DNA from: Paludibacter sp. 47-17
GTDB taxonomy: Bacteria; Bacteroidota; Bacteroidia; Bacteroidales; Paludibacteraceae
Length of the DNA: 64,000 nucleotides
Reading direction: 5' to 3'
Assembly: GCA_001898935.1 (NCBI GenBank)
Contig: MKVT01000008.1
Span: 310,001 to 374,000 of the forward strand
The notes below the pieces were generated by a model. The model saw only the letters and a program-made list of their open reading frames with translations, was not told where the DNA came from and did not search any database. Made by a program: the position numbers and the translations under genes. Shown here piece after piece: positions 32,416-50,300 of this stretch; positions within the stretch are counted from its first letter, which is position 1; the number at the start of each line of letters is the position of its first letter.

Positions 32416-32489
32416 ATAAAGAGCGCCGCTGAAGGGCTGTGATCGTTAGCGCGGTTCAGTTCTCTCCGGTTAGGAAGCGAACATCAAAT

Positions 32490-33575: not shown

Positions 33576-33579
33576 CAAC

Positions 33580-34410: not shown

Positions 34411-34496
34411 GATTTTTATGAATTGAAGTGTAAACAAAGTAGGTTTTTTACGTTTTGATACCCTTTTTGTTTACCGGTTAACCTTCGGAAGGGAGT

Positions 34497-34539
34497 AAAA
34501 AACTGTATTTTTGCATTCAGTGAAAATACAGTTTTTTTT
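34497..34539 (+). promoter_or_regulatory. Inverted repeat combining terminator and GH2 promoter
   Basis: A perfect 15-bp inverted repeat (AAAAAACTGTATTTT at 34497-34511 and AAAATACAGTTTTTT at 34523-34537, 11-nt loop) ends two bases before the GH2 ATG at 34540. The -7 element TATTTTTG (34506-34513) lies in its left arm and the expected start near 34520 lies in its loop. Read-through RNA from pyrF would fold it as a U-tailed hairpin; RNA started at the local promoter would lack the left arm and could not fold it. Confidence 0.7.
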
Positions 34540-37035
34540 ATGATGAGCATTATACTCCGGCTTGTAATCGTATTTGGTTTAGTACTTCCTTTGGCAGCGC
34601 CGGCCCAGGGGCGGCAGGTAATCGGTTTTAATTCCGGTTGGAAGTTTCTGAATCAGGACGTCGCTCCAGCTTTTCAACCCGGTTATGATGATAGTAGATG
34701 GCGGAGTTTGAACCTGCCGCACGATTGGAGCATCGAATCCGATTTTAGCGAACATTATCCGGCCACGCCCGGCGGAGGTGCATTGCCCGGTGGTGTAGGG
34801 TGGTACCGGAAAACGTTTGATTGCCCCAAAGGCAAGTACAGCCAGGTTTTTATCGATTTCGACGGCGTGTACCGCAACAGCGAAGTATGGATAAACGGTC
34901 ATTACCTTGGAAAGCGGCCGTTTGGCTATATTGGTTTTCGGTATTGTTTGACTCCCTATTTAAAATTTGAAGGTGCTAATGTGTTGGCGGTGAGGGTCGA
35001 TAATTCCATGCAGCCCAATTCGCGCTGGTATTCGGGTTCGGGTATTTACCGCAATGTGTGGTTGGTAACCACCAATGATGTTCATGTGGCGCATTGGGGT
35101 ACGTATGTTACAACGCCGGAAGTGTCGGCGGAAAAAGCCTTGCTGAAGGTCGAGACCAGGCTGGAAAACCGGTCGGCAGAAGACCGGACCGTGGAAGTGA
35201 GGCAGCGATTGCTGGATGCGAAAAGGAAGGTGGTGGCGGGAGCACGTGAGTTTGCGAGGGTGAAAGAAGGGGATATCCTGGCGGTAACACAGCAATTGAA
35301 GCTTACCGCTCCGCACCTGTGGTCGGTCGACGATCCGGCGATGTACAGGCTGGAGACTTTGGTCTACGAATCGGGTCGCTTGATGGATAGTTATATCACC
35401 GAGCTTGGTTTGCGCTGGTTTACGTTTGATGCCGGACGGGGTTTTTCTCTTAACGGGAAGCCGATCAAAATCAACGGAGTGTGTATGCATCACGATCTGG
35501 GAGCGTTGGGGGCTGCTATCAACACGAGGGCGCTGGAGCGGCAGTTGGAGTTGTTGAAGGCGATGGGAGTGAATGGGATCCGGACGGCACATAATCCGCC
35601 GGCGCCGGAATTACTTCAATTGTGCGATAGGATGGGCTTTATTGTTCAGGATGAAGCGTTTGATGTGTGGCGTAAAGGCAAATCGGCTTTTGATTACTCA
35701 CTCGATTTTCCCGGATGGTTCGAGCGCGATTTATCGGATCTGGTGTTACGCGACCGGAACCACCCTTCGGTATTTATGTGGAGTATAGGTAACGAGGTTC
35801 AGGAGCAATGGCTCGACGAGCAACGTGATACCTTGAGTTTGAAGGAAGCGAATGTAATGCTGAATGTTACGCGTACGATCAATCCTGAGGAGTACAAGGG
35901 GGGCCGGGCTTCGGTGAATGCACTGATTACCAAACGCCTGTCCGAGATTGTGAAGCGCTTGGATCCGACCCGTCCGGTGACGGCCGGGAGTAATGAAACG
36001 CGTGATATCAACTTTCTGTTTCAATCGGATGCATTGGATCTGATTGGATTTAATTACCATGAACAGGAGTATGCCGGTGTGCCCGGACGTTTTCCGGGTA
36101 AGCCGTTTATTGTCACCGAGTCGGTTTCGTCGCTTCATACACGTGGCTACTACGTACAGCCCTCGGATAGCATGGTGATTGCACCCAGGCGTTGGGATAT
36201 CCCGTATTCCGATCCGTCGCAGCAATGTTCGTCGTACGACAACAGTCATGTACCCTGGGGATCGACTCATGCCCGTACGCTCCGGATTGTGGAGCAATAT
36301 CCGCATATTGCCGGCCAATACATCTGGACCGGGTTCGATTATCTGGGTGAACCAACGCCTTACTGGTGGCCTTCGCGCAGTTCGTATTTCGGGTTGGTCG
36401 ACCTTGCCGGGTTTCCGAAGGATAGTTATTATTTGTACCAAAGTCAATGGACTCACCGGCCGATGTTACATGTTTTTCCGCACTGGAATTGGCAGGCGGG
36501 CGATACCATCGATGTATGGGCCTATTACAACCAGGCCGATGCAGTGGAACTTTTCCTGAACGACCGGTCGCTGGGACGCAAATCGAAAGGAGAGGCCATG
36601 CAGGTAGTGTGGAGGGTGCCTTTCGAATCCGGCACAATCAAGGCTATTAGTTTTAAAGAAGGGACGCCAGTGCTGGTTCAGGAGCGAAAAACCGCCGGAC
36701 AACCCGTGGCAATAAGGGCTGTTCCCGACCGTAACCGGTTGAAAGCCGACGGAAAGGATCTTTCGTTTGTTACCGTCGAATTGGTAGATGCCGATGGGAA
36801 TGCCTGTCCGCTGGCCACTAATCTGGTTCGTTTCTCGGTTGAAGGCGAAGGTTTTATTGCCGGTTCCGATAATGGAAATCAGAACGATCACCATTCGTTG
36901 AGCAAACCGCAGCGGAACTTGTTCTATGGGAAATGCATGGCGATTGTACAGAACAAGGGGAAAAAGGGTTTGTTGAAAGTAAAGGTGGAAGTGGACGGTT
37001 TACCGGCTGTAGTCGTAAAGTTAAAGGTAGGTTGA
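34540..37035 (+). CDS. Glycoside hydrolase family 2 (beta-galactosidase-like), secreted
   Basis: A retaining glycosidase predicted to reach the periplasm or outer membrane: N-terminal signal (LRLVIVFGLVLPLAAPAQG), sugar-binding domain (about 25-185, LPHDWSIE), immunoglobulin-like domain, TIM barrel (about 300-590) with the acid/base Glu419 in WSIGNEV and the nucleophile Glu527 in IVTESVSS, then C-terminal beta domains (DUF4982-like about 640-700 and a GH2 C5-like domain). 831 residues. It is not in a SusCD polysaccharide locus; it stands alone, with its stop codon four bases from that of the convergent HlyD gene. Substrate (galactoside versus other) is not certain. Confidence 0.92.
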   Translation: MMSIILRLVIVFGLVLPLAAPAQGRQVIGFNSGWKFLNQDVAPAFQPGYDDSRWRSLNLPHDWSIESDFSEHYPATPGGGALPGGVGWYRKTFDCPKGKYSQVFIDFDGVYRNSEVWINGHYLGKRPFGYIGFRYCLTPYLKFEGANVLAVRVDNSMQPNSRWYSGSGIYRNVWLVTTNDVHVAHWGTYVTTPEVSAEKALLKVETRLENRSAEDRTVEVRQRLLDAKRKVVAGAREFARVKEGDILAVTQQLKLTAPHLWSVDDPAMYRLETLVYESGRLMDSYITELGLRWFTFDAGRGFSLNGKPIKINGVCMHHDLGALGAAINTRALERQLELLKAMGVNGIRTAHNPPAPELLQLCDRMGFIVQDEAFDVWRKGKSAFDYSLDFPGWFERDLSDLVLRDRNHPSVFMWSIGNEVQEQWLDEQRDTLSLKEANVMLNVTRTINPEEYKGGRASVNALITKRLSEIVKRLDPTRPVTAGSNETRDINFLFQSDALDLIGFNYHEQEYAGVPGRFPGKPFIVTESVSSLHTRGYYVQPSDSMVIAPRRWDIPYSDPSQQCSSYDNSHVPWGSTHARTLRIVEQYPHIAGQYIWTGFDYLGEPTPYWWPSRSSYFGLVDLAGFPKDSYYLYQSQWTHRPMLHVFPHWNWQAGDTIDVWAYYNQADAVELFLNDRSLGRKSKGEAMQVVWRVPFESGTIKAISFKEGTPVLVQERKTAGQPVAIRAVPDRNRLKADGKDLSFVTVELVDADGNACPLATNLVRFSVEGEGFIAGSDNGNQNDHHSLSKPQRNLFYGKCMAIVQNKGKKGLLKVKVEVDGLPAVVVKLKVG

Positions 37036-37039
37036 TCCC

Positions 37040-38347
37040 TTAGTGCAACACCTTGGACCGGTTTACTAAATAGTTGACAGGCGACAGGAGGCGGGCCATC
37101 AGGCTTCGTTTGTTGGTAATGATTTCGGCCCTACCGTTTAGTTCGCCCTGTAGGTGCAACTTTTTGCCGGTGGTGGTGATCAAACCCTGCTCAAATACAA
37201 TTTCGACAGCATAATACTGCTTGTCGGGCACAAGAGAGCTTTTCCCGACGCTGCCCCGAAGCATTCCGAATTCGAGATAGGGATAATCGTCGACCTTTAC
37301 CAATACGAGCTGCCCGCTTTCCACCTTTCCGGCGCCGGCTGCCGGCATCAGCATTCGACCGGTTATGGTAGAGAGGCTATCGGTTACCACAGCCATCATT
37401 TTCTGATCTTTGGCAATGTATTGCTGCTCGTTCCAGATCCCATTAAAACTGAGGGTGCCCGATGCAGGAGCTGTGAGTAAAAAGTTGTACTGCCAGTTGC
37501 TGAGTGCCGTTTCCAGTTCCATTAACGACGATTTTAATGCCGCATACAGCTGGTTTTTCTCTCGCTGCTGCTCGATCGATAATTTTTGTAACGAACCTGT
37601 AAGTTGCGACGATTCTATATTCTCGAGTGAGGCGGTGGTTTTTAGTTGTTCCAATTCGTTCTGCCGGCTTAAAAGCAATTGTTCGGCCTGTTCCAGCTCC
37701 GACTCGGCCAGTACTTTTTGATCGTACAGCTGTTTGTCGCGTAAATAAACCGATCGTGCAATCTCAACTTCCTTTTCTTTGTTCGCGATCTGACTCCATA
37801 CAATCTTGCGGTAATCGCCACGGTTTTTCAACTGCTGGCTAATGATACTTTGTTCTTTTTCCGACAGGTTCAGTTGCAGGAAATTGCGGTAGGCTATCGC
37901 ATTGTTTACAAATTGCGAATAAGCCGGCTGCATGGTGCCCAACTCAAAGCGTTCGTTCAGCAATTGTTCCGGATAACTTACTTTGTTTTCTTCAAAAACA
38001 GTCTCCTGCAACAACGAACGTATGCGCAGCACATCCTGAGTGTTGGCCGGATTGTCGATAACAGCCAGTGCGTCGCCCTTCGCCACATACTCCTGGTCGG
38101 AACAGAAGAGCTGACTCAACATTCCTTCCGACCGTGCCACTACCCATACCGGAGGCGAACTGCTGCTGATGGAAACGGTTCCTTCGACCCGGTCGGGGTA
38201 GATAAAGAAAAAGCCGGCTATAAGGACTGAAAGCACGATCAGGCCGATGAGCATAATGCCGTAGCGAATAAGGGCATGCGGCGGACGACTCAATATTTCC
38301 TGAACCTCGTGGCTTCGTAGGTGTAGTTGATCTGCTTTTTTACTCAT
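37040..38347 (-). CDS. HlyD-family membrane fusion protein of peptide exporter
   Basis: Periplasmic adaptor that links an inner-membrane ABC exporter to an outer-membrane channel. The 435-residue protein has a short cytoplasmic N terminus, one transmembrane segment (about 28-50, YGIMLIGLIVLSVLIAGFFF), a barrel-sandwich start (VEGTVSIS, VAKGDALAVID), a long coiled-coil (about 110-300, Gln/Glu/Leu-rich) and a C-terminal beta domain (YYAVEIVFEQGL). Its start overlaps the end of the C39 exporter gene by 4 bp (ATGA). No TolC-like gene is nearby; a shared outer-membrane channel elsewhere is assumed. Confidence 0.92.
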   Translation of the reverse strand: MSKKADQLHLRSHEVQEILSRPPHALIRYGIMLIGLIVLSVLIAGFFFIYPDRVEGTVSISSSSPPVWVVARSEGMLSQLFCSDQEYVAKGDALAVIDNPANTQDVLRIRSLLQETVFEENKVSYPEQLLNERFELGTMQPAYSQFVNNAIAYRNFLQLNLSEKEQSIISQQLKNRGDYRKIVWSQIANKEKEVEIARSVYLRDKQLYDQKVLAESELEQAEQLLLSRQNELEQLKTTASLENIESSQLTGSLQKLSIEQQREKNQLYAALKSSLMELETALSNWQYNFLLTAPASGTLSFNGIWNEQQYIAKDQKMMAVVTDSLSTITGRMLMPAAGAGKVESGQLVLVKVDDYPYLEFGMLRGSVGKSSLVPDKQYYAVEIVFEQGLITTTGKKLHLQGELNGRAEIITNKRSLMARLLSPVNYLVNRSKVLH

Positions 38348-40536
38348 ACGTCCAATTGATTTTTTACCAGCCGGTAGTAAGCTCCTTCCTTTTTTAGCAA
38401 TTCTTCGTGGGTTCCTTGTTCCACGATTGCACCCTGGTCGATCACCACGATCTGGTCGGCATTACGAACCGTACTCAGGCGGTGGGCTACCACGATGGAG
38501 GTACGTCCGTTCATAAAACGTTCGAGTTGTTGCATGATAGCCCGTTCGTTGTTGGTGTCGAGCGCATTGGTCGCTTCATCGAGGAAAACCACTTCGGGAT
38601 CTTTGTAAATAGCCCGTGCGATCAGAATACGCTGTTTCTGTCCCTGACTCAGCCCGATTCCTTCCTGACCGATTTTTGTATTGTACCCCAAGGGCAAGGA
38701 TTCGATATAGTCCCTGATATGGGCAGCCTCTACCGCATTCAGTAATTTTTCCTGGTCGATACTTTCCCCGCCGGGAGCAATATTACGGGCAATAGAGTCG
38801 GAAAATAAGAATCCATCCTGCATCACCACGCCGCATTTTTTACGCCATTCGCGCATGCTGTATGTGTTGAGACGTTGGTTGCCCAGCCATATTTCACCCT
38901 GTTGAAGCGGGTAGAAGCCCAGCATGAGTTTCACCAGTGTTGTTTTGCCGCTTCCGCTGCTCCCCACGATAGCGGTTTGTTTGCCGGCAGGTATATGCAA
39001 GTCGATACCGCGGATAACCGGCGATCCCATGCGGGTCGTGTCGTATCCGAAAACAACATTTCGCAATACAATATCCTGCCTGGCCGGAATTTTCTGTATC
39101 CCGGGATGCAGAGCCGGTTCTTCCTCTTCTTTTTCGTGGATCTCACCCAGGCGTTCGAGACTCAGTTTTGCATCCTGACTTTCGCGTAAAAAATTAATGA
39201 GTTGGTCGACCGGGCTATTGAGCTGTCCGATTATATACTGAACTGCCAGCATCATCCCCAGCGTCATCGTTCCGTCGATCACCAGTTTGGCAACCAAAGC
39301 GGTGATAAGCAGGTTTTTTGTCTGGTTAATCAGAACTCCGCCCGAATCCTGGTATTGCGCCAGTGCCAGCCCTTTTATCCGAAGCCTGAACATACGCGCC
39401 TGCAACCGCTCCCACTCCCAGCGTTTTTGCTGTTCACATCCATTCAGTCTGATCTCCTGCATGCCGTTGACCAGCTGGATTACATTGCTTTGGTTGGCCG
39501 ATTGAAGCGCGAAATTCTTGTGATCCAATGCTTCACGGCGCTTCATGAATATCCATACCCAGCTGAAGTACAGCACACTGCCCACGACGAATATGCTGAA
39601 TACGGCTAAGTTGTAAAGGAGTAAAACGATGCTGAATAGAACGATGGTAAAGGCCGAGAAAAGAATGTTCAGACTCGAATTGGTAAGGTAGTGCTGAATG
39701 CGCGTATGATCGTTGATACGTTGCAGTATATCGCCCGTCATTTTTGTATCGAAATACCCCATGGGTAAGCGCATCAACTTGATAAGAAAATCGGAAATAA
39801 GTGCTATATTGACTCTGGTGCCCAGGTGGAGAAGGATCCAGCCGCGGATAAACTCGGTCGCGGTGGAGCTGATAATAAGCATTAGCTGAGCAATAAGTAC
39901 GAGCCAGATATAGCTGATGTCGTTGGTGGCTACCCCCACATCCACGATAGACTGGGTAAGGAAGGGAAGGATGAGTTGCAACAGGCTTCCGATCACCAAT
40001 CCGATCATCACCTGGGTGATGAAACTCCGGTAGGGACGTATGTAGTTGAGTAAGAATGAAAATCCGCGCCGGTTGACACGATCGCCTTCCTGGGCATAAA
40101 ATTCGGGAGAAGGTTCGAGGAGCAGCGCGATCCCCACTGGTTTATCATCGTGGCCGGAGCTGATCCAACACCGGCAAAACTCATCTTTCGTATACCGTTG
40201 TTTCCCGCCTGCCGGATCGGCCACATCCACATAGCTTTTCCCCTTTCTGGTGGTCATATTGTACACCACGACAAAATGCTCCTGATTCCAATGTACTATA
40301 CAGGGCAGGGGAGCCGTTGTCAGTTCGTCGAAACTCACCAGTACGCCGGTCGAACGCAGTCCTATCGTATCGGCAGCCTCGCTGATTCCCAGAAGCGAAA
40401 CGCCCTCGCGACTCAGGTGCGCCCGCTCGCGTAAGCCTTCGAGCGAAAAAAAACGACCATGGAAGGCCGCCACCATTCGCAGGCAGGCAGGACCGCAATC
40501 CATGGCGTCGTGTTGAGCGAAAAAAGGGAATTGCAT
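38344..40536 (-). CDS. C39-peptidase-containing ABC exporter
   Basis: Cleaves double-glycine leader peptides and exports the core. N-terminal C39 domain (1-140): Gln8, catalytic Cys14 (DCGPACLRM), His87 (EHFVVVY) and Asp107 (VADPAGG). Then a six-helix transmembrane domain (about 160-450) and an ATP-binding domain (about 480-730) with Walker A GSSGSGKTTLV, signature LSQGQKQRILIARA and Walker B VVFLDEATNALD. All catalytic residues are intact, so it should both process and transport. Its probable substrate is the peptide encoded at 41505-41633. It is transcribed with the HlyD gene and has its own -7-like TAATATTG. Confidence 0.95.
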   Translation of the reverse strand: MQFPFFAQHDAMDCGPACLRMVAAFHGRFFSLEGLRERAHLSREGVSLLGISEAADTIGLRSTGVLVSFDELTTAPLPCIVHWNQEHFVVVYNMTTRKGKSYVDVADPAGGKQRYTKDEFCRCWISSGHDDKPVGIALLLEPSPEFYAQEGDRVNRRGFSFLLNYIRPYRSFITQVMIGLVIGSLLQLILPFLTQSIVDVGVATNDISYIWLVLIAQLMLIISSTATEFIRGWILLHLGTRVNIALISDFLIKLMRLPMGYFDTKMTGDILQRINDHTRIQHYLTNSSLNILFSAFTIVLFSIVLLLYNLAVFSIFVVGSVLYFSWVWIFMKRREALDHKNFALQSANQSNVIQLVNGMQEIRLNGCEQQKRWEWERLQARMFRLRIKGLALAQYQDSGGVLINQTKNLLITALVAKLVIDGTMTLGMMLAVQYIIGQLNSPVDQLINFLRESQDAKLSLERLGEIHEKEEEEPALHPGIQKIPARQDIVLRNVVFGYDTTRMGSPVIRGIDLHIPAGKQTAIVGSSGSGKTTLVKLMLGFYPLQQGEIWLGNQRLNTYSMREWRKKCGVVMQDGFLFSDSIARNIAPGGESIDQEKLLNAVEAAHIRDYIESLPLGYNTKIGQEGIGLSQGQKQRILIARAIYKDPEVVFLDEATNALDTNNERAIMQQLERFMNGRTSIVVAHRLSTVRNADQIVVIDQGAIVEQGTHEELLKKEGAYYRLVKNQLDV

Positions 40537-40567
40537 GCTATAAAATCAGTTTTTGAGTTTTGAGCTG

Positions 40568-40575
40568 CAATATTA
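40568..40575 (-). promoter_or_regulatory. Promoter -7-like element for the exporter genes
   Basis: TAATATTG, within TATAATATTG, lies 31 bp before the exporter ATG. The same variant element precedes the peptide gene (41664-41671). No GTGAG repeats were found upstream of this copy. Confidence 0.45.
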
Positions 40576-40652
40576 TATAAAAAATAGCAGGTGAAGGAAG
40601 GTATGTAAAAATTACAGTCAAATAATAATATCTTTATTGTAAAGAATGTAAA

Positions 40653-41090
40653 TTAAAATGATCCGATAATGGCGTAGTCAACGGCAGGGTATTCCTCGGC
40701 TTTACTCCGGTTGTTCTGCCATTGCAAAGGCTGCAGGTTGCTCAGGTCGTCGGTGCCACCTTTCGATACAGGTTTGATATGGTCGATTTCCCAACCAACA
40801 CCATTTTCCGATATAAAACCAAATTTATCATATTGCATCCAAGCTCCACAGCTATCTTTGCGATACTTGTCGGGATCGAAACCATGAATAATTTGCCCCT
40901 TATTCCAAACAGCTTTTACGATTTTCTCGGGCCACTGGTTTCCATTTATATCAGTATTCCTATAACGTGCCATCTTAGCTTTTTTTTCTGAACGAATTCC
41001 TCGCACATCGTTGATAATATTCAAAGGCTGAAACACCTGTTCCTGTGTACAAGGTTCCATGAGTGTAAACTGTAAATCAGATGTTTGCAT
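40653..41090 (-). CDS. Small HNH endonuclease-like protein
   Basis: A 145-residue protein with a C-terminal HNH motif: GWEIDHIKPVSKGGTDDLSN followed by LQPLQWQNNRSKAE, giving the metal/catalytic His and Asn residues. The middle part (ARYRNTDINGNQWPEKIVKAVWNKG) is shared by many small Bacteroidota HNH proteins, which often start at the Met at 40973; that start would give 106 residues. Starts at 41090 and 41060 are alternatives. No signal peptide or double-glycine leader is present. It lies downstream of one of the GTGAG arrays and upstream of the exporter. Its role in this locus is unknown. Confidence 0.75.
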   Translation of the reverse strand: MQTSDLQFTLMEPCTQEQVFQPLNIINDVRGIRSEKKAKMARYRNTDINGNQWPEKIVKAVWNKGQIIHGFDPDKYRKDSCGAWMQYDKFGFISENGVGWEIDHIKPVSKGGTDDLSNLQPLQWQNNRSKAEEYPAVDYAIIGSF

Positions 41091-41257
41091 TACGTTTCAA
41101 TTTTTATTTGAAGTAGTTTATGCCCCTGTGAGTCGCAACGCTAACCAGAAGACAACTATTTTTAAACAAACAAATAAATCCTTTATAATTCCGATTTATG
41201 AACAATTCCTTTTTGACAAGGATGAGAAATAATGGTTATTAATGCTTTTTGATATTG

Positions 41258-41265
41258 CAGGTATA
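41258..41265 (-). promoter_or_regulatory. Possible activated promoter upstream of HNH
   Basis: TATACCTG on the minus strand lies 27 bp from the first base of the proximal array unit, exactly the distance seen between array and -7 element at the peptide gene. It matches TAnnTTTG only partly, as expected for an activator-dependent promoter. Confidence 0.4.
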
Positions 41266-41283
41266 CACTTAAAATCGATAAGT

Positions 41284-41327
41284 AGTTCTCACGCGCTTCT
41301 ACTAAGCTTCTACCAAAGTTCTCACTG
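41284..41327 (-). promoter_or_regulatory. 11-bp repeat array upstream of HNH
   Basis: Four consecutive 11-bp units, given on the plus strand: AGTTCTCACGC, GCTTCTACTAA, GCTTCTACCAA, AGTTCTCACTG. TTCT is fixed in all four and TTCTCAC in the outer two (GTGAGAA on the minus strand, pointing toward HNH). The period is one DNA turn, as in operators for OmpR-type regulators. Confidence 0.7.
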
Positions 41328-41412
41328 GTTGTTTAATGTATATTAACAAAATAACAGATGCTTTGCGGGCGCTCCATCGGTATCCCGGAGCTGTGCTGAA
41401 GACGGGTGGAGT

Positions 41413-41462
41413 ATAAAATCGAACGGCAAACAATACGCCGATTGTTTGCCGTTCGATTTTAT
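41413..41462 (-). terminator. Terminator after the peptide gene
   Basis: A 22-bp perfect stem (41413-41434 with 41441-41462; core TCGAACGGCAAACAAT) around the loop ACGCCG. On the minus strand it is followed by a short T run within the arm and lies 42 nt after the peptide stop codon. The A/T ends make it potentially bidirectional. Confidence 0.8.
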
Positions 41463-41479
41463 TGCTTCAGCGAAGCAAT
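41461..41479 (-). other. Short hairpin next to the terminator
   Basis: ATTGCTTC and GAAGCAAT separated by AGC form an 8-bp stem sharing two bases with the large terminator stem. The two folds compete only at their junction. It lies 25 nt after the peptide stop and may stabilise the 3' end of the short mRNA. Confidence 0.55.
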
Positions 41480-41504
41480 GGATAATCTTCAATAAATATG
41501 CAAT

Positions 41505-41633
41505 TTATAGCCAAACAGTAGTTGTGCGACCGTCGGAAGTTTTAATACGTAACCAATAACCACCTTTAACTTCGTTCATCTGTGCTGCGTTCAATGTTGT
41601 GAATTCTGCTGCTTTTTTGTTAGTTGTTTTCAT
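41505..41633 (-). CDS. Double-glycine leader peptide precursor (42 residues)
   Basis: A 42-codon gene with a classical export leader. The first 25 residues begin MKTTNKKAAEF and end QMNEVKGG. Counting back from the GG cleavage site, hydrophobic residues occupy exactly the positions used by C39 peptidases: Val22 (-4), Met19 (-7), Leu14 (-12) and Phe11 (-15). The 17-residue core is YWLRIKTSDGRTTTVWL: cationic (two Arg, one Lys, one Asp), no Cys, and with Trp near each end. No lanthionine, radical SAM or other modifying enzyme is close, so the product is probably linear and unmodified. The matching C39 exporter and HlyD protein are encoded 1 kb downstream on the same strand. A signal peptide (pheromone) or small bacteriocin are the main options. 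Too short for usual gene finding. Confidence 0.85.
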   Translation of the reverse strand: MKTTNKKAAEFTTLNAAQMNEVKGGYWLRIKTSDGRTTTVWL

Positions 41634-41663
41634 ATGCGTATTTGTTTGTTTTTAATTACCTTA

Positions 41664-41671
41664 CAATATTA
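41664..41671 (-). promoter_or_regulatory. Promoter -7-like element for the peptide gene
   Basis: TAATATTG, in context TATAATATTG, lies 30 bp before the peptide ATG. The proximal GTGAG unit of the array overlaps the -33 position, which fits activation by a regulator touching sigma. Confidence 0.55.
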
Positions 41672-41691
41672 TAGTATAATTTGACGCGTTG

Positions 41692-41731
41692 AGCTCACGG
41701 GGTTCTCACAAAGTTCTCACAAAGTTCTCAT
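41692..41731 (-). promoter_or_regulatory. 11-bp repeat array upstream of the peptide gene
   Basis: On the minus strand, four units start every 11 bp: ATGAGAACTTT, GTGAGAACTTT, GTGAGAACCCC, GTGAGCT (the plus-strand copies of CTCAC/CTCAT are at 41694, 41705, 41716 and 41727). Two units are identical over 9 bases. This is the best-preserved of the three arrays and the likely binding site of the response regulator encoded at 43423-44091. Confidence 0.82.
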
Positions 41732-41903
41732 TTTGGACATAAAAAAAGCTAAATAATTTTGATAAAATGCGTCATTTATAATATTTCTTAATGTTTTTGG
41801 ATTATTATTCTTCAAATTGTCTCATTTTTTGTACTTTTGGGCATTCAAAAAGTTCACAAAGATTTCTGCATTACTACAACTGACAGCGATTTGTGTGAAA
41901 AAT

Positions 41904-41936
41904 GTGAGTTATTAGTGAGTAATTTGTGAGGTTCTG
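41904..41936 (+). promoter_or_regulatory. 11-bp repeat array upstream of the kinase gene
   Basis: GTGAGTTATTA, GTGAGTAATTT and GTGAGGTTCTG begin at 41904, 41915 and 41926, exactly 11 bp apart and on the coding strand of the kinase. A weaker GTGAA lies at 41895. Same motif, period and orientation rule as the arrays before the peptide and HNH genes. A matching -7 element at the expected distance is poor (TACCCCCT), so this array might act on a downstream weak promoter or repress the basal TACTTTTG promoter. Confidence 0.72.
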
Positions 41937-42036
41937 AAATTTTCGGGTGGGTACCCCCTCCCCATGTTCGGAAAAAAGCGTAATTTTATACCCACAATCA
42001 ACCCCGATTTTATCCATAATTTGATTATCGTCCTGT

Positions 42037-43386
42037 ATGTCGTCTAAAACTGTCTTTTTGTTGGTATTGCTTTCCTTTATTCTGATTTTCGGAACGCAGG
42101 TTTTTTTGATCATCGATTATTACAATACCACGCGTGCGGCATGGATTAAAGAGTCAAATACGGTGATTGAAGAAGCTTTCAGGGCGGACTTGTCACTTCG
42201 GAATATTGAATATCGAAATTCACTTAATGATGATGATTTGGTTGTAGCTCCAGTTCCGCCCAGTGAGGATAATACTTCGTATGTAGATATAAGTAATGTA
42301 TCTACTAAAAGTGTAATCAGTGTGCTTGACATGGCGATACATAAACATTTAAGCAATCAGGTGCCTCTTCAACTCCATCAGCTCGACAGCATTATTTCCA
42401 CCATATTAGAAGCACGTGAGATTCACAGTAAATTTACGGTTAATCTGGTACGCATTGCATCGGGTGAAATCATAGAAGCGTCGCGCGATAACTGGAAGTC
42501 GTCGTTATTCCTCATTTCGAGCGAGCCGATGCTGATCGATGCAGAAGCAGGGATTGCGCTTCAGTTGCATCTTATCAATCCTTTTCAGATCATCATAAAG
42601 CGGATGGGGCTTATGCTTGCCTCTTCGCTGATTTTATCGCTTATTTGTATACTGGCTTTTGCTTATTTATTAAAAGTACTGGCAAGGCAGAAGCAATTGG
42701 TGGCATTCAAGAATGAGTTTCTGGGTACCATTGCTCACGAGTTGAAACGGCCGGTTTCGAGTCTTACCTTCAATCTCGACTGTCTTAGTATGTCGGGCGC
42801 TCCGCTTGCGACACCTCAGAATACCTTGTTGTTGAATAATTCAATTCGCGCCACCGACGAATTAAATGAATCGATTAATATGATTGTAACCTTATCGAAG
42901 CACGAAGAGGGGATGTTGGTATTAAACAATCTGAATATCGATTTGCCGGGTATGCTGGAAGAATTGCGCGATAAATTCAGCGAGCAACGCTTTAAGAATA
43001 AGGAAGTGTCGATTTCGCTCGAGGTAGCCGGGCAGCTGCCGCCGTTGGTAGGCGACCGGCAATTGCTGATGCAATGCTTTGCCAATCTGATCGATAACGC
43101 CATTAAATATTCGGGCGACACGGTGGAGATTCAGATCAGGCTGGTGCCTGAGGGGAATTGGGTCCGTACCAGTATCCGCGATAACGGATTTGGTATTCCC
43201 GCGGAAAAAATCGACATGGTATTCGATAAATACAGCCGTGTACATTTGGGAAAAACCCAGATCAAAGGCTTTGGAATCGGGCTCAACTATGTTAAGAATA
43301 TTGTTGAAAAGCACCGTGGCGAAGTGCAGGTGGCCAGTGAAGCCGGGAAAGGCAGTGAATTTAGTGTGTTGCTGCCGGTAAGTTAA
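42037..43386 (+). CDS. Sensor histidine kinase
   Basis: A 449-residue membrane kinase. Transmembrane 1 (about 5-26), a periplasmic sensor of about 160 residues (27-188) that matches no domain I recognise, transmembrane 2 (about 190-213), a HisKA domain with the phospho-acceptor His234 in GTIAHELKRPVSS, and a HATPase domain with N box NLIDNAIKYSG, G1 DNGFGIP and G2 FGIGLNYV. No HAMP or PAS domain separates membrane and catalytic parts. The overall build resembles Bacteroidota RprX-like kinases. With the regulator gene 36 bp downstream and the peptide/exporter genes divergent, the secreted peptide is a candidate ligand; this is inference. Confidence 0.92.
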   Translation: MSSKTVFLLVLLSFILIFGTQVFLIIDYYNTTRAAWIKESNTVIEEAFRADLSLRNIEYRNSLNDDDLVVAPVPPSEDNTSYVDISNVSTKSVISVLDMAIHKHLSNQVPLQLHQLDSIISTILEAREIHSKFTVNLVRIASGEIIEASRDNWKSSLFLISSEPMLIDAEAGIALQLHLINPFQIIIKRMGLMLASSLILSLICILAFAYLLKVLARQKQLVAFKNEFLGTIAHELKRPVSSLTFNLDCLSMSGAPLATPQNTLLLNNSIRATDELNESINMIVTLSKHEEGMLVLNNLNIDLPGMLEELRDKFSEQRFKNKEVSISLEVAGQLPPLVGDRQLLMQCFANLIDNAIKYSGDTVEIQIRLVPEGNWVRTSIRDNGFGIPAEKIDMVFDKYSRVHLGKTQIKGFGIGLNYVKNIVEKHRGEVQVASEAGKGSEFSVLLPVS

Positions 43387-43422
43387 AGTTAATAAGAAGA
43401 ATCAGGTAAAATTAAATAAAAT

Positions 43423-44091
43423 ATGTACAAGGTATTATTAATCGAAGATGATTTAAATTTGGGTACTACACTGAGAGGGGCGCTGGAAGAACGTAAATTT
43501 TCGGTACGTTATTTATCAGGGGGCACCAACGTAATGAAGGAGTTTGCTGATTTTCAGCCCGATATTGTTTTGCTTGATGTGAACCTGAACGAGGAGCTCG
43601 ATGGTTTTGCCATCAGTAGGAAAATACGCGAAGTAAGTCCCGTGCCCTTACTCTTCACCACTTCCCGTGACGAGAATACCGATTTCGATCAAGCCTTCAG
43701 CATCCCCAATACCGATTATGTTCGCAAACCCTATCGCCTGGCCGAAGTGTTGAAGCGTATCGAAAAGTTGGTGGTTAAAGAAGCGTCGGCCGAAAAGTTT
43801 GATATAGGCCGGTACGAGTTTTATCCTTCACAGCATAAACTGGTTATTCAGGAGGAGGAGATTTATCTTAATAATTATGCTTCGGAAGTACTGAATGTTC
43901 TGTGTAAAAATGCCGGAAATTTTGTTAAACGTCCGCTGATGATCGAAACGGTGTGGAAAACCAAGGATATCCGCACGAAAGAAGGGTCGCTCAATAATAT
44001 TATGAGCATGTTGCGAAAATACTTCGAAAATGAGGAAGGCGTGATTTTAGAAAGTCGTATTAAACTGGGGGTACGGTTAAAAGTGGATTGA
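43423..44091 (+). CDS. OmpR-family response regulator
   Basis: A 222-residue DNA-binding regulator: receiver domain (1-118) with the acidic pair Glu9/Asp10, phospho-acceptor Asp52 (IVLLDVNL), Thr79/80 and Lys102 (VRKPYR), followed by a winged-helix effector domain (about 128-222; YLNNYASEVLNVLCKNAGNFVKRPLMIETVW). OmpR-type domains bind tandem direct repeats spaced about one helical turn, which is what the three GTGAG arrays are. It forms an operon with the kinase and is followed by a terminator. Confidence 0.94.
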   Translation: MYKVLLIEDDLNLGTTLRGALEERKFSVRYLSGGTNVMKEFADFQPDIVLLDVNLNEELDGFAISRKIREVSPVPLLFTTSRDENTDFDQAFSIPNTDYVRKPYRLAEVLKRIEKLVVKEASAEKFDIGRYEFYPSQHKLVIQEEEIYLNNYASEVLNVLCKNAGNFVKRPLMIETVWKTKDIRTKEGSLNNIMSMLRKYFENEEGVILESRIKLGVRLKVD

Positions 44092-44143
44092 GACACTCTA
44101 CGGCGGGTGTCGCACAACTATACTGAGCACTCCGGGAAGTTAC

Positions 44144-44193
44144 AAAAAGAGCCATACCTAACTCTGATAATGAGTACTGATATGGCTCTTTTT
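44144..44193 (+). terminator. Terminator after the response regulator
   Basis: Stem AAAAAGAGCCATA (44144-44156) with TATGGCTCTTTTT (44181-44193); the 24-nt loop holds a small inner ACTC/GAGT stem. Flanking A and T runs make it bidirectional. Confidence 0.85.
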
Positions 44194-44201
44194 AGTGTTT
44201 T

Positions 44202-44236
44202 GAAAGCGGTCAACTTTTCAATTAAAAGTTGCTTTC
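44202..44236 (-). terminator. Possible terminator after asnB
   Basis: CAACTTTT / AAAAGTTG (44211-44218, 44224-44231) with an outer GAAAGC / GCTTTC arm interrupted by a 3-nt bulge. It lies 41 nt after the asnB stop codon on the minus strand. Confidence 0.6.
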
Positions 44237-44276
44237 TTCTGAATTTGAGTTTGGACACATTCTCATTCGGAGCGGT

Positions 44277-45941
44277 CTAATAAGCCTGTTCGTGCACATT
44301 GGCCACCGCCCGTCCCGATGGATCGTTTTGCTTTTTGAAAGCCTCGTCCCATTCGAGTGCCACAGGTGTCGAGCAGGCTACCGAAGGTACCGAAGGCACG
44401 CAGGCTGCCGCCTGTTCCGAACCAAAATGTTCTCTGAATATACTTCTGTAATAGTATTCTTCTTTTGATAAAGGAGGATTTACCGGGAAGGTTTCGGTTA
44501 CCCGGGCCATCATTTCGTCGGTCACCTGCGACGAGGTGATCGCTTTCAATGTGTCGATCCAGCTGTATCCGACACCATCCGAAAACTGTTCTTTCTGTCG
44601 CCAGGCAATACTTTCAGGAAGGTATTCCTCGAAGGCTTTGCGAAGCACCCATTTCTCGATTTTTCCTTTTCCGGCCATTTTATCCTGCGGATTCAGGCGC
44701 ATCGCCACATCCATGAATTCCTTGTCGAGAAACGGTACGCGCCCTTCTACTCCCCAGGCAGCTAGCGATTTGTTGGCCCGCAGGCAGTCGTATTGATGTA
44801 ACTTGCCGAGTTTACGAACGGTTTCTTTGTGAAATTCTTCTGCATTCGGGGCCTTGTGGAAATACAGGTATCCTCCGAAAATTTCATCGGCTCCTTCGCC
44901 CGAAAGCACCATTTTAACCCCCATCGATTTGATGACGCGTGCCAGTAAATACATGGGTGTACTGGCTCTTACGGTGGTTACGTCGTAGGTTTCGATGTGG
45001 TAGATTACATCGCGGATAGCGTCGAGCCCTTCCTGCACCGTAAAATTGATTTCGTGATGCACGGTGCCGATGTGTTCGGCTACTTTACGGGCCGCTGTTA
45101 AATCGGGAGAGCCGGTTAGTCCTACGGCAAACGAATGCAATTGCGGCCACCAGGCTTGTTCTTTATTTCCCGATTCGATGCGCATGGGCGCTTTTCGTTT
45201 GGCAATGGCCGAAATGATCGATGAATCGAGTCCGCCGGAGAGTAGTACCCCATACGGCACATCGGACATCAACTGGCGTTCGACCGCGTCTTCCAATGCT
45301 TTGCGCAATTCGTCGATGTCGGTCGGATTGTTTTTTACAGCATCAAATTCCATCCAATCGCGTTGGTACCATTTGACCGGAGCTCCATCGGGACTATAAT
45401 AATATTGTCCGGGAAGAAACTCTTCGATGCGGGTGCAATAACCTTCGAGGGCTTTGAGTTCCGACGCCACATAGTAGGTGCCGTTTGCATCCCAGCCCTG
45501 GTACAAAGGTATGATGCCGATATGATCGCGGCCGATGAGGAAAACATCTCTGGCCACATCGTACAGGGCAAAGGCAAAAATGCCATTCAGGTCTTCCAGA
45601 AAATCCTTTCCCTTGTCCTGATAGAGCGCCAGGATTACTTCACAGTCCGACTGGGTCTGAAACTCGTAGCGGCCTTCGTAGCGCTTACGGATTTCGCGGT
45701 GGTTGTAGATTTCGCCGTTCACAGCCAGTACCAGGTTGCCGTCCTTGCTATACTGAGGTTGTTTTCCGGAGGCCGGATCGACAATGGCCAGGCGTTCGTG
45801 AGCAAGGATAGCCCGTTCGTTGGCAAAGATTCCCGACCAGTCGGGACCGCGGTGACGGATGGTTTTCGACTGCTGCAATACTTGCTGTCGCAGCTGGGCG
45901 CTATCTTGTTGTATGTTGAAGGTACAAACTATTCCGCACAT
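44277..45941 (-). CDS. asnB: Asparagine synthase (glutamine-hydrolysing)
   Basis: Makes asparagine from aspartate, ATP and glutamine. The 554-residue protein starts MCGIVC with the N-terminal nucleophile Cys2, has the glutaminase segment RHRGPDWSG and AVNGEIYNH, and a synthetase domain with the pyrophosphate loop VLLSGGLDSSI and SGEGADEIFGGY. Last gene of gltB-gltD-asnB, starting 4 bp after gltD, so glutamine and glutamate use are transcribed together. Confidence 0.97.
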   Translation of the reverse strand: MCGIVCTFNIQQDSAQLRQQVLQQSKTIRHRGPDWSGIFANERAILAHERLAIVDPASGKQPQYSKDGNLVLAVNGEIYNHREIRKRYEGRYEFQTQSDCEVILALYQDKGKDFLEDLNGIFAFALYDVARDVFLIGRDHIGIIPLYQGWDANGTYYVASELKALEGYCTRIEEFLPGQYYYSPDGAPVKWYQRDWMEFDAVKNNPTDIDELRKALEDAVERQLMSDVPYGVLLSGGLDSSIISAIAKRKAPMRIESGNKEQAWWPQLHSFAVGLTGSPDLTAARKVAEHIGTVHHEINFTVQEGLDAIRDVIYHIETYDVTTVRASTPMYLLARVIKSMGVKMVLSGEGADEIFGGYLYFHKAPNAEEFHKETVRKLGKLHQYDCLRANKSLAAWGVEGRVPFLDKEFMDVAMRLNPQDKMAGKGKIEKWVLRKAFEEYLPESIAWRQKEQFSDGVGYSWIDTLKAITSSQVTDEMMARVTETFPVNPPLSKEEYYYRSIFREHFGSEQAAACVPSVPSVACSTPVALEWDEAFKKQNDPSGRAVANVHEQAY

Positions 45942-45945
45942 AATA

Positions 45946-47361
45946 TTAACAATTAATCGTTGAATGAATATCTTCCGCTACTTTCCGGCCGAGAGCAATG
46001 GCGCGTACCACCAGGCTGGCTCCGATTTGGGCGTCGCCGGTGGCAAATACCTTAGCCACATTGCTCCGCGATTGTTTGTCGGTAGCCACATTTCCCCGGC
46101 CGTCGAATGCCACTCCCAGTTCGGTGAGCAGTCCCTCGTGCACCGGATGTACGAATCCCAGCGCCAGAAATACCAGGTCGGCCTTGATGGTTTCGGTTTT
46201 CCCTGTCGGAACCATGGTGAATTTGCCATTTTCGTTTTTCCATTCCACTTCTTCAACCAGCACTTCGGTCACCTTACCGTTTTTGCCGGTAAATTGCCGG
46301 GTGTTCAGACTCCACTTACGCGTGCACCCTTCGAGGTGCGAACTCGAAGTTTTCAGGATATTGGGATAGTAAGGCCAGGGAGTGGCCGGATTTTTACCTG
46401 CAGGCGGCTGGGGTAAGATCTCGATTTGAGTAATGGCGGCGGCGCCCTGACGGACAGCGGTCCCCACGCAGTCGGATCCGGTATCGCCGCCACCTATCAC
46501 CAACACATGCTTGCCTTTGGCATTAATCAGTTTGCGCTCGTCGACCGGTTCTCCCATAATAAGCTGGTTGGCCTGCGAGAGATATTCCATCGCAAAGTGA
46601 ATCCCTTTCAATTCGCGACCGGCCGGGCTAATATCGCGGGGTTTCCCGGCGCCGATGGCAATACAAACCGCATCGAATTCATTCATGATTTGAGTTCCCG
46701 GTACGGAAACGCCCACTTCTGTATTTGTTTTGAAAATAATCCCCTCGGCTTCGAGTTGTTCGATACGCCTGTCGATTACATTCTTATTCAGCTTGAAATT
46801 CGGAATGCCGTAACGCATCAATCCGCCCACATGCTGATCTTTTTCAAATACGGTGACCCAATGTCCCTTGCGGTTGAGTTGCTGGGCAGCAGCCAATCCG
46901 GCAGGACCGGAGCCGATCACGGCAATTTTCTTTCCTGTGCGTGTTTTCGGCGGTTGCGGCTTGATCATGCCTTCGAGAAAGGCGACCTCGGTCACTGCAG
47001 CTTCGTTTTCACGAATGGTTACAGGGGCGTCGTGCAATGCCAGTACACAGCTTTTCTCACAGGGAGCCGGACAGATACGGCCTGTGAAATCGGGGAAATT
47101 ATTGGTTTCGTGCAGTACTTCCACACCTTCTTTCCATTTCCCTTTGTAAATAAGGTCCTGCCATTCGGGCATCTTATTGCCCAGCGGACAAGCCCAGTGG
47201 CAGAAAGGGATTCCGCAATCCATACAGCGTGAGGCCTGCAGTTTGCGGTCTTCCCGGTTCAATGTTTGTTCTACCTCGCCGAAGTCGTAAATACGTTCGC
47301 TGACCGGCCGGTAACCCGCTTCCTTGCGGGGTATATAGGTGAATGCTTTCGGATTTCCCAT
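45946..47361 (-). CDS. gltD: Glutamate synthase small subunit
   Basis: The FAD- and NADPH-binding subunit passes electrons to GltB. In 471 residues it has the N-terminal cysteine clusters for 4Fe-4S centres (CMDCGIPFCHWACP and GRICPAPCEKSC), the FAD motif VIGSGPAGLAAA and the NADPH motif VIGGGDTGSDC, ending in a FAD-binding FATGDAQIGASLVV. It lies 8 bp after gltB. Confidence 0.97.
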   Translation of the reverse strand: MGNPKAFTYIPRKEAGYRPVSERIYDFGEVEQTLNREDRKLQASRCMDCGIPFCHWACPLGNKMPEWQDLIYKGKWKEGVEVLHETNNFPDFTGRICPAPCEKSCVLALHDAPVTIRENEAAVTEVAFLEGMIKPQPPKTRTGKKIAVIGSGPAGLAAAQQLNRKGHWVTVFEKDQHVGGLMRYGIPNFKLNKNVIDRRIEQLEAEGIIFKTNTEVGVSVPGTQIMNEFDAVCIAIGAGKPRDISPAGRELKGIHFAMEYLSQANQLIMGEPVDERKLINAKGKHVLVIGGGDTGSDCVGTAVRQGAAAITQIEILPQPPAGKNPATPWPYYPNILKTSSSHLEGCTRKWSLNTRQFTGKNGKVTEVLVEEVEWKNENGKFTMVPTGKTETIKADLVFLALGFVHPVHEGLLTELGVAFDGRGNVATDKQSRSNVAKVFATGDAQIGASLVVRAIALGRKVAEDIHSTINC

Positions 47362-47369
47362 TGTCGTAA

Positions 47370-50300
47370 TTAATAATCGCGTTGTACTTGTGCTATCTTC
47401 TTGTTGATGGCTTCCATCTTCTCTTCCTGCAATACTTTTTTGTATTCGATCGGAACTACTTTGATGAATTTATCCACTGCCTCGCGCCAGTTGTCGAGAA
47501 TCTCTTTGGCCCGCACACTTCCTGTATACTGATAATGACGGGTAATCAGGCTGTGCAGCTCTTTACTGTCCATGCTGTCCTCGATGAGCGAGAGTTCCAC
47601 CATTTCCATATTACAATAGAAATCGAAATCGCCGTTTTCGTCGTACACATAAGCCACTCCACCACTCATACCGGCGGCAAAGTTGCGGCCCGTGGCGCCC
47701 AGTACGACGGTACGGCCGCCCGTCATGTATTCGCAGCAATGATCGCCGGCACCTTCCACCACGGCTATCGCCCCGGAGTTACGCACACAGAAACGTTCGC
47801 CGGCCACACCATTAATAAACACCTCGCCCGAGGTAGCGCCGTACAGCATCGTATTACCGGCTATGATGTTTTTTTCCGGGCGGAAAGTATGTCCCGAAGG
47901 AGGGACAACAATGATGCGTCCGCCCGACAGCCCTTTGCCCAGGTAGTCGTTGGCATCGCCTTCCAGGCGGAAGGTAGCTCCCTTGCTCAGGAAGGCGCCA
48001 AAACTCTGACCTGCCGACCCTTCGAACGAAGCCGTTATCGTTCCTTCCGGCAACCCGGCCTGACCGTAACGTTTGGCTATTTCGCCCGAAAGCATAGCGC
48101 CCACCGAACGGTCGGTATTTTTCACTTCACTCCTGATCTCTACCGGAACACATAAGTCGAGTGCAGGCAAGGCTTTCTTGATGAGTTGTATATCCAATAC
48201 CTTGTCGATTTTATGTTCCTGATTTTTCACGTGCTTCAGCGCCGCTTCAGGATTAACCGGTTTGAAGCCGGTGATGCGCGACAAATCGACTTTCGCGATT
48301 TTTGCCGGACCGTCCACCTGCCGGCGTTTCAAAAGATCGGCACGGCCAATGATCTCGTCGAGCGAGCGATAACCCATTTGCGCCAGGTGTTCGCGTACGT
48401 CCTCGGCCAGGAACTTAAAGAAATTGACCAGGTATTCGTGCCGTCCGGTAAAATGCTTGCGCAAATCTTCATCCTGGGTCGCAATACCAACGGGACAGGT
48501 ATTGAGGTGGCATTTACGCATGATCACGCAGCCCAGTACGATGAGTGCGCTGGTGGCGAATCCGAATTCCTCGGCACCCAGCAGGGCTGCCATCACGATA
48601 TCGCGGCCGGTTTTCAGCTGGCCATCGGCCTGCAATACGATTTGTCCGCGAAGGTTGTTGAGCACCAGCGTCTGCTGAGTCTCGGCCAGACCGATTTCCA
48701 TGGGCAGGCCCGCGTGTTTGATGGAGCTCGACGGACTTGCGCCGGTTCCCCCTTCGTACCCGCTGATCAGAATCAGATCGGCTTTTGCTTTTGCCACACC
48801 GGCGGCAATGGTTCCCACGCCGCTTTCCGAAACCAGTTTCACGCTGATTACCGCCGCAGGATTGATATTCTTCAGGTCGAAAATCAATTGCGCCAAATCC
48901 TCGATCGAATAAATATCGTGGTGGGGCGGGGGGGAGATAAGCGAAATCCCCGGGATGGAGTGACGTGTTTTAGCGATAATTTTATCCACTTTATGCCCCG
49001 GAAGCTGACCCCCTTCGCCCGGTTTTGCACCCTGGGCGATTTTGATCTGAATTTCGTCGGCATTCACCAGGTATTCGGCCGTGACCCCAAAGCGTCCCGA
49101 TGCCACCTGCTTGATAGCCGAGCGCGCGCTCAGTCCGTCGGCCCTCTTCTTATAACGTTCGGGATCTTCGCCCCCTTCGCCGGTATTCGACCGTCCTCCC
49201 AGGAGATTCATGGCCATTGCCATGGCTTCGTGAGCTTCACGGCTGATGGAACCGTAGGACATCGCCCCGGTAACAAAACGCCGGTAAATATTTTCAATGG
49301 GTTCTACCTCGTTGATGTCGATCGGGTTGCGCTCGTATTCGAGCAAGTCGCGGATAAATACCGGCGCCGCTTTTTCGTCGGCCGACTTCACGTATTCTTT
49401 GTATTTATCGTAACTGCCGGTCTTGGTCGCAATTTGCAACCGGGCGATCGTTTCAGGGTTCCAGGCGTGATGTTCGCCTTCGACCCTGTAGGCGTACTGG
49501 CCCAGGTTCAGCAGTTTGACTTCTTCGCCTTCTTTTGGGAAAAAGGCATGGGTGTGAGGTTGGAGTACTTCCCCGGCAATATCGTCCAAATCGATCCCTT
49601 CTATTTTCGATACCAGGCCTTTGAAGTAAGTACTTACCACCTGATTCGAAATTCCGATGGCTTCGAAAATCTGAGCGCCCCGGTAACTGCGAACGGTTGA
49701 AATTCCCATTTTCGACATCACCTTGAGCAGCCCTTTGTTGATGGCCTTGATATAGTTTTTCTCGGCCGTATGGAAGTCAAGTTGCAGGTCGCCCGATTTA
49801 ATTTGTTGATTCAGAATGGCAAAGGCGAGATAAGGATTCACCGCGTTGGCGCCAAATCCGAAGAGCAATGCAAAATGCATTACCTCGCGCGGTTCGGCAG
49901 TTTCCACCACGATATCGGTTTGCATGCGTTTGCGTTTGTCGATCAGGTAATGATGTACCGCCGATACCGCCAGCAACGATGGGATGGGCGCCTGGTCGGC
50001 GTTTACGCCCCGGTCGCTCAGCACGATGTAATTCTTGCCCTCGTCAACAGCTTTTTCCACTGCGATGCAAAGTTCTTTGATTGCTTTCTCCAGCCCCTTT
50101 TTACCCTCTTTGGCCTTGAAATGCATCGGCAGTATAGCCGTCGAAAAGCCTTTGTAGCGCAGGTTCAGCAGGATGTCGAACTGGGTGTTGGTGAGTACCG
50201 GGCTCTTCAGCTTTACCATTTTACAGATTTCGGGTGCCGGTTCCAGCAGGTTGTTGTGAACCGAGCCCACGTAGGACGTGAGCGACATCACCAGCTCTTC

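Follow-up and report, generated by a model that had tools for sequence, protein, structure and literature searches.

A short minus-strand open reading frame (ORF) beside an exporter operon raises the question of whether it encodes a genuine secreted peptide and, if so, what role such a peptide might play in the window, meaning the whole 64,000-nucleotide stretch of DNA analysed here. The ORF translates as MKTTNKKAAEFTTLNAAQMNEVKGGYWLRIKTSDGRTTTVWL followed by a stop codon, with the leader MKTTNKKAAEFTTLNAAQMNEVKGG and a 17-residue core, YWLRIKTSDGRTTTVWL, from which cysteine is absent (Table 1). A preliminary description of this DNA had reported a double-glycine (GG) leader, and we indeed found Val at -4, Met at -7, Leu at -12 and Phe at -15 from the second glycine. 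The linked C39 exporter that it named contains the corresponding domains and shares both strand and upstream repeat with the peptide gene, and, as also described, no modifying enzyme was recognised by eye among the neighbouring ORFs. The peptide is likewise unannotated, all of its Pfam and NCBIfam matches lying below cut-off; a ComC match in Pfam reached 12.8 bits (cut-off 20.4), and a T9SS tail match (13.5 bits, cut-off 23) was regarded as chance. Overlooked in that description were a divergent kinase/regulator pair, the hairpin plan of the core, a set of 11-bp repeats and the recurrence of the arrangement in other families.

Table 1. Features of the peptide locus, in window coordinates.
Feature	Position	Strand	Remarks
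Double-glycine precursor, 42 aa	41505-41633	-	Leader 1-25, core YWLRIKTSDGRTTTVWL with a 7 + SDG + 7 plan
Probable terminator, 22-bp perfect hairpin 3' of the peptide gene	41413-41462	-	-31.3 kcal/mol, z -8.12
-7-like element TATAATATTG	41664-41673	-	20 bp past the last repeat core, 30 bp before the ATG
Four 11-bp direct repeats (ATGAG/GTGAG...) upstream of the peptide gene	41694-41731	-	Candidate regulator boxes
Weaker 11-bp repeats, kinase side	41904-41930	+	3 mismatches
Sensor histidine kinase, divergent from the peptide gene	42037-43386	+	Proposed receptor; HisKA 38.3 bits (cut-off 26.9), HATPase_c 95.8
Response regulator, OmpR-type DNA-binding domain	43423-44091	+	Trans_reg_C 27.5 bits (cut-off 26.2)
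Same 11-bp repeats upstream of the HNH-C39-HlyD genes	41288-41325	-	
-7-like sequence TGTATACCTG	41258-41267	-	Weak; 20 bp beyond the HNH-C39-HlyD repeats
Small HNH-domain protein	40653-41090	-	First gene past the second repeat block; HNH 30.3 bits
C39 peptidase-containing ABC exporter	38344-40536	-	Peptidase_C39 105.9 bits, ABC_tran 109, ABC_membrane 94.3
HlyD-family adaptor	37040-38347	-	Profile matches

The GG-leader motif by itself is not significant and could have arisen by chance, one motif ORF being present in the window against a mean of 0.47 per Markov-resampled window, with at least one in 36 of 100 resamplings. We regard the ORF as real because it is conserved and because it has a promoter element of its own. 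Two congeners carry copies that are 74% and 69% identical over residues 1-42, the outcome of a check on leader and core conservation that the preliminary description had proposed. In three comparisons among the host genome (G000), G024 and G027, pN was 0.03-0.10 against a pS of 0.44-0.71 for the leader, and 0.20-0.35 against 0.45-0.91 for the core; the leader is tightly constrained, and the core drifts under constraint. The 42-codon ORF, which is the sole match in its own genome (4.18 Mb, 39 contigs), is genuine and conserved, and this conservation rejects a chance ORF.

A peptide match at E<=1 was present in 16 of 48 genomes of the genus, and individual reading identified a complete GG peptide whose core has a D/N-G turn near its middle in 12 of the 16, the host included (G000, G024, G027, G033, G038, G007, G029, G010, G009, G012, G004 and G025). 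The matches of this search in G011, G013, G028 and G040 were not GG hairpin ORFs; G040 and G013 nevertheless have a peptide elsewhere. The plan of the core is GG, seven residues, a turn and seven further residues, the turn comprising either two residues (DG, NG, HG) or three (SDG, ADG, PDG, PNG), with exceptions in G012 (short second strand), G004 (extra Tyr), G009, G010, G004 and G040 (C-terminal tails) and G521 (longer loop and tail). The turn glycine is invariant in 20 of 20 aligned rows, all picked as members. Five members from the genus (G000, G024, G027, G033 and G007) have tryptophan at both position 2 and position 16 of the core, where the two side chains would oppose each other across the three-residue loop; a predicted model places strands at residues 27-31 and 37-41, at low confidence (mean pLDDT 59.3). 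The core had previously been called cationic, which holds for the window core (net +2) but not for the family, since net charge runs from -1 to +5 across 15 cores (those of G009 and G040 were trimmed one Gly short for this count, which leaves their charge unaffected). This range rules out a cationic antimicrobial as the conserved property. From the earlier reading we thus keep a real GG precursor tied to a C39 exporter and give up the cationic core as a conserved trait; what is conserved in the core is a beta-hairpin plan and not charge.

The peptide gene lies head-to-head with the genes of a histidine kinase and a response regulator. Searching the genus with this kinase at E<=1e-60 returned 25 rows in 22 of the 48 genomes, which correspond to 24 kinases, as two G027 rows share an overlap of 201 nt, 95% identical, where their contigs end; the second of these continues into the regulator and AsnB, as in the window. 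The kinases of G044:C553 and G034 end at a contig edge, leaving 22 that are readable. Fourteen of these face an intact GG hairpin peptide (G000, G024, G027, G033, G038, G040, G007, G009, G012, G025, G029, G004, G010 and G031:C9), and three face an altered one, with the core kept and GG lost in G002, the core in another frame in G013 and internal stops in G001. G002, a one-contig genome, retains the promoter as well as the hairpin core IWVLIPNADGTSTWVWV behind its leader without GG (L216). Intact pairs reach down to 35% kinase identity within the genus (G031:C9), and G012:C33 holds a second peptide/kinase pair whose kinase is just 27% identical.

The other 5 of the 22 readable genus kinases (G037, G016, G014, G031:C55 and G044:C79) face no peptide, and all five retain the promoter element described below at 25/25 positions; the system can therefore persist without the hairpin peptide. 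The circuit can thus lose or exchange its peptide; these cases may be read as natural loss of the signal or, alternatively, as a sign that the main role of the system is a different one. The G037 locus, with kinase, regulator, a 25/25 element and no peptide seen behind it (L172:6002-6039), is a natural signal-less case.

The kinase is a better predictor of the peptide than the exporter is. A C39 protein at least 69% identical occurs in 12 genus genomes, the host included, and among these G011 and G044 have no peptide match and G001 has a broken peptide; conservation in relatives that keep the exporter, whose absence the preliminary description had named as grounds for refuting its reading, thus gave a mixed result. 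Hairpin peptides were found at just 4 of 80 named C39 loci (L023, L034, L036 and L066), from which it would follow that the C39 transporters of this clade serve many peptides, and kinase matches longer than 60 aa were also found at four (L023, L036, L066 and L083, the last of 115 aa at 34%). The hairpin peptide itself associates with the kinase.

Core and sensor region may co-diverge beyond kinase-domain divergence (partial r 0.59 given kinase-domain distance, p 0.001, 15 pairs); this is suggestive at most because the leader control correlates too (0.45, p 0.001). Within the genus, core and leader both gave 0.58; in a thinned set of 11, the core gave 0.30 (p 0.044) and the leader -0.01. In a fold search with the kinase, the 50 matches considered out of 694 consisted of histidine kinases plus a small number of related signalling proteins, and the sensor region had no separate match among them.

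Several features of the exporter and its surroundings were also seen. Several of the named contigs closest by their C39 gene belong to Paludibacter MAGs, and the host is accordingly taken as Paludibacter-like. The HNH-domain gene between repeats and C39 gene is present in G024 and G027 as well. Two separate ORFs encode the C39 exporter in G010 and G004, one for the peptidase (168 aa) and one for the ABC portion (556 aa) (L107:6569-8772, L110:10190-12393). The host genome has a second C39 exporter, 45% identical (L139:6544-8730), whose cluster, inspected by eye, includes genes resembling those of glycosyltransferases as well as one for a 181-aa protein that carries a GG motif around residue 31. 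In five genomes (L103:1056-1760, L104:3724-4488, L105:4440-5141, L108:8656-9366 and L109:8457-9254), the peptide gene has a DUF6261 gene downstream.

Beyond the genus, the peptide/kinase pairing recurs in other Bacteroidales families, in G301, G516, G431, G650 and G521. A single-sequence kinase search of 393 genomes of the order at E<=1e-75, with the best 4 candidates per genome scored, returned besides the host G301 and G516, both of another family, whose kinases (38-39% identity) both face hairpin peptides. A kinase profile run against 267 genomes of the order, with the best 6 candidates per genome scored, gave 10 rows in nine genomes, and the four best (host, G301, G516 and G431; E<1e-100) each lie opposite a hairpin peptide, G431 alone being independent in this test because the other three were profile rows. 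The six weaker rows (G403 twice, G318, G554, G357 and G462; E 1e-72 to 1e-86) had no hairpin peptide opposite in the stretches examined. Using the peptide profile, we obtained matches in at least 14 of the 393 genomes, the host included; among the 13 others, G301, G516, G650, G431 and G521 combine a hairpin core with a divergent kinase, and in G521 a C39 exporter gene (61%) directly follows the peptide gene. The peptide is also present in G596, on a contig that gives 757 bp upstream and is too short to judge the kinase, while the matches in G378, G483, G380, G432 and G471 are other GG peptides, and none of the ORFs listed for G402 and G311 had the form searched for. A class-wide peptide search matched at least 13 of 395 genomes, the host included, in 18 rows; of these, 17 came from genomes other than the host (L265-L281), and they showed no kinase within the stretches examined (tblastn E<=1e-4) and no hairpin core of 16-19 residues, being other GG peptides, some adjoining a C39 gene. 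Weak members can escape these kinase and peptide searches, since scoring was limited in each genome to the best candidates, at most 18 in the order-wide and class-wide peptide searches.

PhoB/OmpR-type regulators bind 11-bp direct repeats, and Bacteroidota promoters possess a -7 element. In the 4.18-Mb host genome, the pattern GKKAGNNSYTTGKKAGNNSYTTGKKAG is matched four times with at most 2 mismatches, the three sites being the promoters of the peptide gene and of the HNH-C39-HlyD operon and, third, C14:120575, against 0 for the reversed control; within the window, five repeat matches at <=3 mismatches compare with 0.03 expected. The third site (L138:5565-5602) precedes a pectate lyase/CBM77 gene and has no -7 element at 20 bp. 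Across the genus there were 38 repeat matches in 14 of 48 genomes, most at the peptide/kinase system or related promoters; those in G016:C5, inside a large ORF, and those in G041:C51 are not known to belong there. The reversed control gave 74 matches in 8 genomes, outnumbering the pattern because of G031, G036 and G043, which hold 69 of them, with 5 elsewhere.

Scoring a looser consensus that joins repeats and -7-like element at a spacing of 20, we found that 16 of 25 kinase-upstream regions reached at least 22/25, compared to resampled maxima of 17-19; this spacing was the best in 15 of the 25 and tied in G009, with a mean best score of 21.84 against 17.7-19.0 at 20 other spacings. High scores in the closest promoters are partly by construction, because several of them were used to draw up the consensus by eye; the rarity in the host genome and the C39 site of G038 are not products of this construction. 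In G038 the C39 gene lies on a different contig from the peptide, yet it is preceded by the element with 20-bp spacing, at 33/33 consensus positions against a resampled maximum of 21. Nine regions scored below 22 (G033, G029, G010, G004, G025, G516, G012b, G013 and G031b); the G516 stretch stopped short of the peptide promoter, which when scored separately gave 24/33 (resampled maximum 21), and in the G029/G010/G004/G025 clade the scoring of upstream regions found no promoter element. Upstream of C39 genes, 4 of 9 regions exceeded resampled maxima (host, G024, G027 and G038), and the element was absent from the 450 nt scanned before the C39 or HNH gene in the other five (G011, G044, G040, G001 and G012), of which G011, G044 and G001 have the C39 gene closely behind another gene. 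The strict element, searched with its promoter geometry, occurred in 11 of 48 genus genomes at <=3 mismatches and in the host at the peptide promoter alone; rows in G011, G014, G027:C86 and G032 lie away from the system and probably reflect chance, and the reversed controls gave one match in each of 6 genomes.

Two further settings of the repeats were noted. In G027, an identical repeat and -7-like element (L174:6012-6038; 30/33, resampled maximum 23) precede a 497-aa gene with no Pfam match above cut-off. In G004, G010, G025 and G029, the same repeats are divergent from a lone response regulator gene (L167:6030-6067, L168:5978-6015, L169:5976-6002 and L170:5970-5996), and by eye a -7-like element lies 20 bp on, followed by a stretch without a convincing ORF, which makes these stretches a candidate regulator-controlled small RNA. 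The folds of two of them were not significant (z -1.5 and -1.9), and Rfam gave no match at the four loci.

Streptococcal double-glycine pheromones of the ComC/BlpC type work with a ComAB exporter and a ComDE-type two-component system, in which an HPK10 kinase (no HisKA, many transmembrane helices) is combined with a LytTR regulator. The window system resembles these in its GG leader with hydrophobic residues at -4/-7/-12/-15, its C39 ABC exporter and accessory protein, linked or co-regulated though not in every relative, its adjacent kinase/regulator pair and its direct repeats common to peptide and exporter promoters; one of 20 hairpin-family members also matches NF033214 ComC (E 0.0005). It differs in its Gram-negative host, its D/N-G-turn hairpin core, a HisKA kinase with a predicted region between two membrane helices in place of a multi-TM HPK10, and a regulator with Trans_reg_C in place of LytTR. 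As the HPK10 and LytTR features are lacking, we do not place it in the ComC/ComAB/ComDE family and propose by analogy that it may work like one. Designed tryptophan-zipper hairpins have a cross-strand Trp pair flanking a tight turn, as the window core is predicted to have; unlike them, the window peptide is natural and genome-encoded, and Trp 2/16 occurs in part of the family only.

Within Bacteroidota, bacteroidetocins likewise have a GG leader and an ABC exporter with a double-glycine peptidase domain, according to the excerpted accounts (PMC6671954; PMC8546649). The two founding members are there given as mature 42-aa peptides with four Cys, with thiol oxidoreductase and 5-TM genes alongside (PMC6671954). 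The window peptide was rejected as a bacteroidetocin, its 17-aa core without Cys falling outside the 35-50 aa and at least 2 Cys given in the same excerpt, and its neighbours being HlyD, C39, HNH, kinase and regulator genes, with no thiol oxidoreductase/TM gene. The Bacteroidales RiPP cluster BGC5 has a two-component system beside it and is one of two without a C39 transporter, as far as its excerpted description goes (PMC10352776); the window kinase and regulator similarly adjoin a putative peptide gene, with the difference that the window has a C39 transporter, a hairpin family and a promoter element, the latter two not appearing in that excerpt. Among titles and the opening parts of abstracts, mostly from outside the subscription literature, we found no description of such a system.

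The gene, its conservation, its pairing with one kinase clade, the shared repeats and the fixed promoter geometry are direct observations, and peptide, kinase/regulator and exporter on one repeat element, together with a fast-evolving core, have what looks like the anatomy of an autoinducing peptide circuit. We consider it reasonably probable that the peptide is an autoinducing hairpin pheromone. The C39/HlyD transporter would cut the precursor after GG and export it; the freed 17-mer would fold as a beta-hairpin (strand 1-7, turn S-D-G, strand 11-17, with Trp2 opposite Trp16) and be sensed by the divergent kinase through its periplasmic region; and the phosphorylated OmpR-type regulator would bind the 11-bp direct repeats and switch on both peptide gene and exporter operon, giving positive feedback. 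This reading draws on the kinase pairing in the genus (14 of 22 intact plus 3 altered) and in the five genomes of other families, the invariant turn glycine, the repeats at three places in the host genome, the element at the unlinked C39 gene of G038 and the hairpin model. Speaking against it are the peptide-less kinases, the loss of GG in G002, the co-divergence of the leader, the 5 of 9 C39 regions and the four-genome clade without the element, the excess of the reversed control and the low pLDDT.

The main rival, which we hold to be rather unlikely, is a two-component-regulated antimicrobial, whereby the kinase would sense stress or competitors and the exported hairpin peptide would kill or inhibit neighbours. 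Such a role would fit tandem peptide copies in G301 (three), G010 and G025, the DUF6261 gene, which could confer immunity, and the precedent of C39-exported short Bacteroidales peptides that are known toxins, namely the bacteroidetocins as excerpted (PMC6671954); the variable charge of the cores, the Cys-free window core, the tighter pairing with the kinase than with the exporter and the failure to recognise an immunity gene beside the window peptide argue otherwise. A local feedback modulator, acting on the kinase of its own cell in the periplasm with no cell-to-cell signalling, would predict the same gene arrangement, and no close C39 gene was seen in the stretches around the G038, G009 and G040 peptides or on the 4.8-kb contig of G033; we judge it improbable, since the leader argues for export and the C39 exporter shares its upstream element with the peptide in the window, G024, G027 and G038. 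It is very improbable that the peptide is a RiPP modified by an enzyme encoded elsewhere in the genome. Its leader is weakly similar to the class I lanthipeptide family NF038153 (17.6 bits, below the curated cut-off of 22, so that this assignment was rejected), which matches 3 of 20 hairpin-family members at E<=0.01, and TIGR04149 matches 1 of 20; NCBIfam matches of the other hairpin-family members were all weak, each NCBIfam family reaching at most 3 of 20 members, with a best E of 4.8e-05. No modifying gene was recognised by eye beside the window peptide, nor any dehydratase or cyclase gene among the ORFs over 30000-50000, six window ORFs having been profile-searched, and a plain hairpin accounts for the conserved residues. 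A chance intergenic ORF, though such motifs arise 0.47 times per resampled window, is already contradicted by conservation, codon constraint, promoter, terminator and kinase pairing, and its probability is negligible.

Peptide quorum sensing through two-component systems is textbook knowledge in Gram-positive bacteria. Gram-negatives are described as using small molecules in an excerpted review (PMC8895600). The arrangement reported here, read as a pheromone circuit, suggests a peptide-based cell-to-cell signal in Gram-negative bacteria. We give an even chance to the fuller proposal that the Bacteroidales pheromone is a natural tryptophan-zipper-like hairpin, 16-17 residues long, which a dedicated kinase reads through its periplasmic region, that the core sequence sets pherotypes, and that the regulator governs the peptide and the exporter as well as, in one clade, the candidate small RNA. 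Because the 17-mer is short, plain and synthesizable, and the kinase, regulator, candidate operator and promoter that go with it are defined, the question is directly testable, and, if true, the pheromone reading would make a peptide language accessible to genetic tracing in a large group of anaerobes.
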